Shown: positions 21,391-23,635 of the stretch, piece by piece | How positions within the stretch are numbered: the stretch's first letter is position 1 | Layout: each line of letters opens with the position of its first letter | Origin: Chitinophagaceae bacterium | GTDB lineage: Bacteria; Bacteroidota; Bacteroidia; Chitinophagales; Chitinophagaceae | NCBI GenBank assembly: GCA_004322015.1 | Contig: SCQT01000142.1 | Span: 1 to 47,378 of the forward strand | Direction: 5' to 3' | DNA: 47,378 nucleotides | The notes under the pieces: generated by a model | The model's database searches: none | Seen by the model: the letters and a program-made list of their open reading frames with translations, nothing else | Told to the model about the DNA's origin: nothing | Made by a program: the position numbers and the translations under genes

Positions 21391-21442
21391 GTTGGCGGGG
21401 ACGCCAACCGGGGCACTGGCTAATGTTGGCGTCCCCGCCGAC
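21391..21442. repeat. Nested GC-rich palindrome, REP-like
   Basis: GTTGGCGGGGACGCCAAC at 21391-21408 is an 18-base hairpin of its own (7-pair stem, GGGA loop). A second copy in inverted orientation lies at 21425-21442, with one base differing and therefore one mismatched stem position. The two arms can also pair with each other (17 of 18 bases) across a 16-base spacer. Two opposed palindromes of this kind are the form of REP pairs (BIME/REPIN). The GC content is far above the surrounding DNA. Strand and function are unknown; it could also act as a bidirectional terminator, although no T-run follows. Confidence 0.65.
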
Positions 21443-21509: not shown

Positions 21510-22229
21510 ATGCATCCGGCGAAATACCTCCTGGTTATGTCATTATTTTTATTTTCCTGTAAAACAACCTTTACAGCTACTAATCATCTTTTAAACAAGG
21601 GATTCCCGAATAATAATGTTATTAATCTGAATCACAGGCTCCACAGGGCTGTTTTAAAACATCATCCGTCTCTGGTCATCATTATGATTGGTACTAATGA
21701 TATGATCAACCCGCCAAAAATGATTTCTTTTTCCGAATACAAAAGTAAGCTAAACGAGCTGGTAACCAATATAAAGCAACACGGCATCCATGTTTTATTA
21801 CTATCGCCGCCACCTGTTGATATAACTGATTTGCTTTCCAGACGCAGTAAAAAAAGATTTAAAGTGTTACCCAATGAAAAAATAGATTCAGTTACTGCTA
21901 TTATCCATCAAATTGCCGTTGAGCAGCATTGCATGTACCTGGATATAAACCGTATATTTAAGGAACATCATTCTCCCAATGATACGAAGTCAAGCCTGAT
22001 AAGGAATGAAATAAACTCAGAGAGGAAGGACGGCGTGCATCCTACTGCTGAGGGTTATCAACTCATTGCGAAAAGTATTTTTAATTTCCTGAAATCACGA
22101 GGTAAAAACTACCAGAGAATTATTTGCTTCGGCGACAGCATTACTTTCGGCGCTTATGTACGCGGCGAAGGATCAACAAAAGGGGATACCTACCCTGCCA
22201 TATTAAAAAGATTATTATTCCCGAAATGA
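21510..22229 (+). CDS. SGNH/GDSL-hydrolase-like lipoprotein with permuted motif order
   Basis: The 239-residue product starts with a lipoprotein signal peptide: Lys5, hydrophobic core, and Cys17 in FSC. SGNH hydrolases normally begin with block I (GDS), then blocks II, III (GxND) and V (DxxH). Here block III (GTND) is at residues 61-64, block V (DGVHP) at 174-178, and block I (FGDSITFGAYVRG, Ser210) comes last, near the C-terminus, followed by only about 29 residues. Block II seems missing: NNVIN runs straight into LNHRL, where relatives would have the glycine-bearing NAGxGGNT. The N-terminus picks up about where the C-terminus stops. This fits a circular permutation, or a tandem copy trimmed at both ends. 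Function as an esterase is uncertain. Confidence 0.75.
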   Translation: MHPAKYLLVMSLFLFSCKTTFTATNHLLNKGFPNNNVINLNHRLHRAVLKHHPSLVIIMIGTNDMINPPKMISFSEYKSKLNELVTNIKQHGIHVLLLSPPPVDITDLLSRRSKKRFKVLPNEKIDSVTAIIHQIAVEQHCMYLDINRIFKEHHSPNDTKSSLIRNEINSERKDGVHPTAEGYQLIAKSIFNFLKSRGKNYQRIICFGDSITFGAYVRGEGSTKGDTYPAILKRLLFPK

Positions 22230-22237
22230 TAGCAATT

Positions 22238-23635
22238 TTACACATGAAACATCTTTTTGACCAACATAATTACGTTTCTGGGGAAAGGAATTTTCTTTCC
22301 TTGATTAATGGATGTTATCTCTTTATTTTCTTCTACTTCCCGTATATGATTTTCATTATTTAATACAGTAACATTTATATGCTCACCGCTTAAGAGCTTT
22401 AAAAATGCCTCTTCCAATTCACCGGACGATGTGATGTTACCGAAACATAGTGCTATTTTATTACCAAATCCTGCAATGCCGCAATTTACTTTTACTGTTT
22501 TACTGGGTGGTGGCGGAACAAATTTGAAATCGTCTATAAGATTATTTATTTCCGGGGAAATGTTGATCTTCCCCAGGTTAGTAATTACACCGCTGTAGCG
22601 GCTCACGCCTATCGAATAGAACTTAGATAAGATAAACGATTTGATAAAAAGCGGTACCCCTCTTACAAAATGATTATTCAGACTTCCTACATTACGGGCT
22701 ATAATTTTATTGATCAGCTTCTGATCGGTTTGAAGTCGCATTTGATGATATACACTTTTTATGATCTCTTCAAAAGTATAATGCCCCAGTCTTAAATCAA
22801 TTTCCGGCAAAACATACAGAGAAAAATTGCGCATAGTTTTGGTGGGAAATACTTTTCTCAAATTTACAGGCACCTCAATACGCAGTATTCTGTTGTTCCT
22901 GCGCTTTTTGGGAGCGGGTAAATGGTTATATACATGCTGTAATGAGAATAAATAAACTGCAATAAAGTATTCCGTTAAGCTGACATTATACGCTTTGGCT
23001 CTTTGCGAAACCTGGTCAAGGGGCATGATAGCGGCCAATACACTGAAACGAAAAGGCCTGTTTAAAGGAAAAGGTAAATGGAAGGCCTTTCGGATCTGTA
23101 TCAGCGAAGAGGGTACCTTTTTAAAATAGCGGCTATACGCATCTTCATATTCTTCATTGGAAGGAATATCGCCGGGGCGAAAGAAATGTTGCCCCTGTGG
23201 AATTTCCGTTCCGCATTTTTCGTAATAAATCAGTAAAAGCGATTTCAGGAATTCGAGGGCGCCAGTGGCATCGGTGAGGATATGAGAAAACTCTACACTG
23301 ATCGTATTTCCCTTAACAAGCACTCTGAACATCAGCTCACGTTTATCAAATGCGTGGCAAGGCCTGTCTGTATCAGATTTTATAATGATGGGAAGCGGAG
23401 AATATTCCAGATAATACCAGAAAAACCCGGTTCGCAGTCTTACTTTATAATAAGGAAACCTGTTTTCTAACGCATGTACCGCTTCAAAAAATTGTGCCGT
23501 ATTTACTCTTTGCTTAAGTCCTGCAGAAATTCTGAAAACTGCAGTTAATTCCCTGCTCCGTATAGCAGGATAGATTTTAGCCGCATTATCAAGCCTTAGC
23601 CAGAATTCATTTTGCCGGATTACTTGTTTGTTCAT
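22238..23635 (-). CDS. Condensation/alcohol acetyltransferase-fold protein
   Basis: The 465-residue protein has the two-lobed CoA-dependent acyltransferase fold shared by condensation domains, wax ester synthases and alcohol acetyltransferases. The catalytic motif HxxxD is visible as SHILTDATG near residues 117-125, and the second-lobe features NFSLYVLPEID and GVITNLGKI are typical. No signal peptide or membrane helix is present. The acyl donor and acceptor are unknown. It ends 8 bases from the SGNH lipoprotein gene in a convergent layout, an acyltransferase beside an esterase-like gene, but that may be chance. It is transcribed away from the GT4 gene at 23834. Confidence 0.75.
   Translation of the reverse strand: MNKQVIRQNEFWLRLDNAAKIYPAIRSRELTAVFRISAGLKQRVNTAQFFEAVHALENRFPYYKVRLRTGFFWYYLEYSPLPIIIKSDTDRPCHAFDKRELMFRVLVKGNTISVEFSHILTDATGALEFLKSLLLIYYEKCGTEIPQGQHFFRPGDIPSNEEYEDAYSRYFKKVPSSLIQIRKAFHLPFPLNRPFRFSVLAAIMPLDQVSQRAKAYNVSLTEYFIAVYLFSLQHVYNHLPAPKKRRNNRILRIEVPVNLRKVFPTKTMRNFSLYVLPEIDLRLGHYTFEEIIKSVYHQMRLQTDQKLINKIIARNVGSLNNHFVRGVPLFIKSFILSKFYSIGVSRYSGVITNLGKINISPEINNLIDDFKFVPPPPSKTVKVNCGIAGFGNKIALCFGNITSSGELEEAFLKLLSGEHINVTVLNNENHIREVEENKEITSINQGKKIPFPRNVIMLVKKMFHV

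Follow-up and report, generated by a model that had tools for sequence, protein, structure and literature searches.

Does a hydrolase whose catalytic blocks stand in the wrong order represent a genuine circular permutation, a gene in decay, or an accident of assembly? This question is raised by an open reading frame (ORF) in a 47,378-nucleotide stretch of DNA from a Chitinophagaceae bacterium, the whole of which is referred to here as the window. The key features of the ORF are listed below, all on the forward strand.

21510..22229, + strand: ORF of 239 aa, putative permuted (G-N-H-S) SGNH-type esterase and probable lipoprotein (Pfam PF13472, E 1e-20; PF00657, E 6.7e-17)
21510..21560, + strand: putative signal peptide closing with the lipobox-like LFSC, Cys17 at 21558-21560 (sequence, by eye)
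21594..21617, + strand: block II, NKGFPNNN (residues 29-36), with Asn34 (21609-21611) at the position of the oxyanion-hole Gly (alignments A1 and A2)
21690..21701, + strand: block III, GTND (61-64), with Asn63; Gly61 and Asn63 are present in 82/82 aligned rows
22029..22043, + strand: block V, DGVHP (174-178), with Asp174 and His177, both present in 82/82 rows
22125..22145, + strand: block I, CFGDSIT (206-212), C-terminal, with the putative nucleophile Ser210, present in 82/82 rows

The motif order of the window protein is II-III-V-I (G-N-H-S) rather than the canonical I-II-III-V (S-G-N-H), and Ser210 of the CFGDSITFG motif lies 29 residues ahead of the end of the protein. The PF13472 and PF00657 matches cover blocks II to V and are better than the curated cut-off; their best stretches leave out block I, starting only at positions 37 and 66 of the respective profiles. 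No AlgX or DHHW family appears among the seven Pfam matches listed for the window protein (E up to 10). In an NCBIfam scan, none of six permuted members came close to any cut-off; for the window protein, the highest-scoring family was AxeA1, which reached 40.1 bits where the cut-off is 700. An earlier note on this DNA had described Cys17, GTND at 61-64, DGVHP at 174-178 and a late Ser210, all of which are present in the 239-aa forward-strand ORF. The same note held block II to be lost, which proved mistaken: NKGFPNNN aligns without gaps with the NKGVAGNN and NAGIGGNN of relatives, and the oxyanion Gly alone is replaced.

The lipobox-like LFSC occupies residues 14-17 behind a hydrophobic leader recognised by eye, with Phe, an unusual residue, at the -2 position. 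A Cys following a hydrophobic leader, shortly ahead of the first strand, is also found in 4 of the 6 sister proteins of the window protein (L002, L041, L044 and L060; loci are denoted here by L numbers) and in L066, and is not clear in the other two sister proteins, L039 and L059. The product is probably a cell-envelope protein, putatively lipidated.

If the order reflects circular permutation, moving the C-terminal block I to the front and rescoring the protein against Pfam should restore a continuous match. On such rotation, the score of the window protein against PF13472 rises from 75.6 to 85.7 bits and the coverage extends from 38-178 to 1-178; L036 goes from 84.6 to 96.1 bits (34-177 to 1-177) and L056 from 90.3 to 101.5 bits (34-178 to 1-178). 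The gains in the three members tried, 10.1, 11.5 and 11.2 bits, are modest; PF00657 covers 1-208 on the rotated sequence. One canonical control, rotated the opposite way, lost block I and yet dropped by just 2.0 bits, so that coverage is more telling than score in this test. A rotated profile made from eight rows yielded 108 matches in 195 family genomes, of which 97 start at profile position 1-4 and end at 213-220, in keeping with the canonical order, and the remaining 11, all known permuted loci, start only at 35-47. Among the 58 matched PDB sequences, there is none in which the best stretch of the natural-order profile joins block I to the rest (in 1yzf, it covers 4-179 of 221), whereas on 1yzf the rotated profile extends from 2 to 218 of 222. 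The nucleophile Ser of the rotated profile aligns with Ser15 of the acetylxylan esterase Axe2, which is marked as catalytic by the deposited catalytic mutant 4jko (S15A, according to the entry title).

The earlier note had called for homologues with the same block order, and these are numerous. In a search of 99 genomes, including the source genome, five others from the same family contained a match to the window protein that starts at residue 7-27 and ends at 236-237, and a second locus of its own genome matched from 24 to 236, with identities of 34-42%. The translations of this own-genome paralogue, L027, and of L002-L006 show an order identical to that of the window protein. An alignment-based scan of genome contigs detected at least 233 stretches encoding a relative; the order was checked in the best 80 of these and is G-N-H-S in all of them (79 by parsing, and L066 by eye from its two pieces). 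Throughout the 79 loci that were parsed, block I starts 32-37 residues past block V, and the span from block III to block V is 108-114 residues. Two frames are broken, that of L049 by a stop that separates block II from block III, and that of L066 between blocks III and V, its halves keeping the same order. Among these best 80 of at least 233, the closest relative is 45% identical to the window protein; the 80 come mostly from Bacteroidota but also from Verrucomicrobiota, Lentisphaerota, Planctomycetota, one Fibrobacterota MAG and one Chloroflexota MAG. Alignment A2 comprises 82 rows, 81 of them distinct (L004 is identical to L084); L049 and L066 were left out because of their broken frames, and L003, L005 and L006 enter only as L083, L085 and L100, apparently the same contigs. 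Gly61, Asn63, Asp174, His177 and Ser210 are invariant across the 82 rows, and the order is kept in all 81 rows other than that of the window protein, far beyond chance. That relatives from several phyla share the block order points to a natural circular permutation and not to an assembly error.

Within the family, the whole permuted profile is matched in 20 of 394 genomes, at 21 loci, the source genome included; one further genome contains a stop-containing fragment, and in five more the matches end ahead of block I. In a draw across the phylum, 4 of 395 genomes match, again with the source genome included. Both surveys scored no more than seven candidates in each genome, so these counts may be low. 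The one available genome of the same genus yielded no match to the permuted profile. The distribution is patchy, as it is for accessory sugar-use genes.

Modelled by AlphaFold2 on alignment A2 (pLDDT 93.1, pTM 0.87), the window protein contains five strands, at residues 26-31, 55-59, 94-98, 142-144 and 203-208, which in our reading correspond to SGNH strands 2-3-4-5-1, in that order; the last strand and helix have a block pLDDT of 95-98. The top Foldseek match of the model is Axe2 (E 5.4e-07, TM 0.53); the TM-scores are modest, with query-normalised values of 0.39-0.61 among the 50 matches listed. VIA gives Z 17.6 to 3mil_B (174 residues, 2.7 A) and Z 17.5 to 7ddy_D (150 residues, 2.1 A); no AlgX-type chain appears among the 50 VIA matches listed, an absence that excludes nothing. 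The structural matches mostly span model residues 21-200, so that the placement of strand 203-208 in the sheet derives entirely from the prediction. The window protein is thus predicted to adopt the five-stranded alpha/beta/alpha SGNH fold, and its kinship with the SGNH superfamily is grounded in homology together with this predicted fold.

Taken together, these observations support the assignment of the window gene to a naturally circularly permuted branch of SGNH proteins. Of the two readings that the earlier note had offered, the permuted architecture is backed by the homologues with the same order, the rotation tests and the confident AlphaFold2 model. Decay finds no support as the source of the order, given that the ORF is intact, the catalytic Ser, Asn, Asp and His are present, and 33 of the 37 conserved columns are kept.

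Decay re-enters in a weaker form: the family could be permuted and active, with the window copy alone having lost, or being in the process of losing, its activity, because Asn34 would disable the oxyanion hole and an orphan gene would drift without its pathway. The oxyanion Gly is indeed replaced in the window copy only, being present in 81/81 other A2 rows, and three more of the 37 conserved columns differ as well (L41N, N80K and H112R). The end branch of the window copy, 1.49, is about three times the median of 0.5; no sugar-use cluster of the relatives' type was recognised by eye beside it within the window; and the sole same-genus genome lacks a match. However, such departures occur elsewhere, with a mean of 1.3 (sd 1.8) in the other rows, eight of which depart at four or more columns (two of them at 8), and five rows have longer end branches. 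Neutral drift over a branch of this length would be expected to produce about 19 nonsense changes, by a rough estimate, and none is seen in the intact ORF; neutrality over the last tenth of the branch would, however, be compatible with this (P 0.15, also a rough estimate). Ser210, Asn63, Asp174 and His177 are all retained in the window copy, and an Asn could also supply the backbone NH. The tree places the window copy with L059, L060, L039, L044, L002 and L041, with a support of 94/66 that is not firm. A relaxed or recently changed window copy is possible given Asn34 and the long branch, but outright or ongoing loss of activity appears unlikely. We read the window copy as a divergent gene that is apparently still constrained, with a minority chance of being inactive.

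A second alternative is that the C-terminal GDS motif starts another domain, the remainder of a truncated tandem of SGNH domains, and that the preceding domain needs no block I to function. A truncated tandem of this kind would be an intermediate of permutation by duplication, yet the gene structure leaves this explanation very improbable. The frame stops 23-46 residues past the start of block I in 77 of the 79 parsed loci; of the two that continue, L102 and L113, the latter runs on into a DUF6259 protein. By our own pattern, block I is present exactly once in 78 of the 80 relatives (the best 80 of at least 233), and Ser210 is found in 82/82 rows. The two exceptions are explained, since the second match in L095 lies far upstream, in the leader region, and L066 has none because its frame is broken; a tandem remnant was accordingly rejected. 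The terminal strand and helix, moreover, are part of the confidently modelled fold (block pLDDT 95-98). The earlier note's proposal that the permutation arose by duplication is still plausible, but no remnant of such an event is seen.

The ends of the permuted domain are marked by its fusions. The domain is C-terminal in beta-helix proteins (L050, by Pfam; L053, L061, L064, L067 and L070, by sequence), follows another N-terminal part without a Pfam match in L076, L079 and L095, and precedes the DUF6259 protein in L113. The own-genome paralogue L027 is leaderless, with 214 aa that begin at strand 2 from the only start codon of the stretch. Given the fusions at either end and this leaderless paralogue, both domain ends look real.

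An assembly rearrangement or chimera that mimics permutation has practically no chance of being correct and was ruled out as an artefact: the source genome is split over 300 contigs, but nothing else beyond the odd order speaks for it, whereas the same order recurs in many independent isolates and MAGs of several phyla, with a III to V span of 108-114 residues in the parsed loci, and the second locus of the source genome is permuted too.

With natural permutation as the preferred reading, the genomic context of the relatives offers clues to function. Neighbours were counted among four called ORFs on each side, in flanks of up to 6 kb, at 76 loci; L056, L072, L085 and L112 were left out because the ORF caller did not recover the gene, and the FAD, SusC and SusD labels denote BLAST clusters, each named by one representative. 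A PF12831-type (FAD oxidoreductase) cluster occurs near 50 of the 76 loci, a SusD-type cluster near 34 and a SusC-type cluster near 30. Ten family genomes with the permuted gene have 0-7 PF12831 matches each, and in seven of them one lies within 4 kb; in the others, the nearest is 11 kb off (G009) or on other contigs (G000), or none was found (G143). No FAD neighbour is present in the flanks seen of the window copy or its sister proteins. Among the latter, L041 sits with amidohydrolase and glucosamine-6-phosphate isomerase-type genes, the neighbourhood of L002 is alike by eye, and GH20 hexosaminidase genes lie near L044 and L059, the latter also with a ROK gene. The start of L027 (L147:13907-14551) overlaps the end of an upstream SDR-like gene, in a cluster that, by eye, includes dehydrogenase-like genes, sialidase-like BNR proteins and a canonical-order SGNH-like gene with GNN in place of GDS. 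Because sugar use is common to the neighbourhoods of relatives, a carbohydrate O-acyl esterase is the most likely function; since many relatives reside in loci for polysaccharide or amino-sugar use, the likely substrate would be an oligosaccharide that carries acetyl groups and is located in the periplasm or on the cell surface.

Two further observations concern these neighbourhoods. L003, L005, L006 and many of L087-L108, which lie beside an FAD oxidoreductase, have an N-terminal R-R or R-K followed by a hydrophobic leader, Tat-like by eye. A protein of about 710 aa is encoded near three permuted genes (L041:8048-10183, L148:8984-11116 and L066:3830-5971); the three are alike by eye, and those of L041 and L066 have no Pfam match at E 1e-5.

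In the window itself, the upstream flank holds, on the other strand, a gene for an Hsp20 protein (PF00011) and a long gene that looks smc-like by eye. Convergent with the ORF, at 22238-23635 on the reverse strand, is a downstream gene weakly similar to alcohol acetyltransferase (PF07247, E 0.00043, below its cut-off). Upstream, at 21391-21442, there is a REP-like element in which GTTGGCGGGGACGCCAAC occurs twice in inverted orientation, once with 1 mismatch, giving an 18-bp hairpin (folding z -6.6); this sequence has 12 matches in the genome at up to 1 mismatch, and the reversed control has 0. A scan for promoters and terminators near the ORF found 5 and 1, respectively, against 4.3 and 0.8 expected.

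The most coherent account is that the ORF encodes a cell-envelope, naturally circularly permuted SGNH esterase of ordinary fold, with an ester-hydrolysing triad and a sugar ester as substrate. We consider this explanation as a whole highly probable: the block order, its conservation, the modelled fold and the neighbourhoods of the relatives are its observed part, and catalysis, substrate, lipidation and triad geometry its predicted elements. The ancestral chain would have been opened between helix 1, past block I, and strand 2, which carries block II, and the old termini joined; as a consequence of this opening and joining, strand 1 with the Ser nucleophile became the last beta element. The folded enzyme would be an ordinary alpha/beta/alpha SGNH esterase, in which His177 and Asp174 would activate Ser210 for attack on an ester of the O-acyl type, probably O-acetyl, and Asn63 would hold the oxyanion together with the backbones of Ser210 and residue 34.

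A broader proposal, which we regard as tentative and, on the whole, somewhat doubtful, is that G-N-H-S is a widespread third SGNH permutation, not found described in the literature searched, and perhaps a dedicated partner of PF12831 FAD oxidoreductases, the two enzymes acting as a unit that removes acyl groups from sugars and oxidises them within loci for polysaccharide use. In exported members, synthesis and membrane passage would both finish with the nucleophile strand, which could delay activity until export is complete; that the paralogue L027 has no leader counts against the generality of this idea. In open-access journal papers, a search for a link between FAD and SGNH enzymes returned no paper. 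The recurrent association with the FAD oxidoreductase hints at a candidate step of polysaccharide use. More generally, natural permutations reveal how enzymes get re-wired and what connections a fold can do without. This multi-phylum family is apparently hidden under a generic GDSL annotation, because the Pfam matches omit block I and the six scanned members score far below the NCBIfam cut-offs.

How does this arrangement compare with known systems? The G-N-H-S cut was not found in the open-access journal literature on permuted SGNH, GDSL and acetylesterase proteins, and excerpts of PMC3779223, PMC5408684 and PMC12419801 contain nothing on permuted SGNH; the permuted proteins treated in PMC9487903, PMC4148444, PMC10302187 and PMC5697884 are AlgX/AlgJ, WssI and PatB1 alone. 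Among canonical S-G-N-H enzymes, Axe2 (3w7v, 4jko), AlAXEase (7ddy) and 1yzf are among the best fold or profile matches, with block I and Ser15 of Axe2 aligning after rotation; their identity to the window protein is 18-26% in structural alignments. Permuted relatives of other kinds exist as well. According to the available portions of PMC4148444, PMC10302187 and PMC9487903, the AlgX/AlgJ family and WssI have a permuted SGNH-like core in the order H-S-G-N, in which Tyr or Asp can take the final position, and AlgX and the DHHW proteins are already counted in the SGNH superfamily despite their other orders (PMC9487903). As far as these portions describe them, AlgX/AlgJ and WssI resemble the window protein in combining a permuted SGNH-like core with carbohydrate O-acyl chemistry, which for the window protein is a prediction, but they are cut between blocks III and V, whereas the window protein is cut between I and II. 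GTSYS and DxH motifs are reported for AlgJ, and the AlgX/AlgJ and WssI proteins have cap domains, in contrast to the GDSIT and DGVH of the window protein. PatB1 of Bacillus cereus (DHHW family) likewise has a permuted SGNH core, but, by the parts of PMC9487903 and PMC5697884 that treat it, combines the H-S-G-N order with KDS and TDHHW motifs and a beta-sandwich cap, as opposed to G-N-H-S with GDSIT and DGVHP in the window protein. The G-N-H-S order thus provides another SGNH cut point to set against those of AlgX and PatB1.
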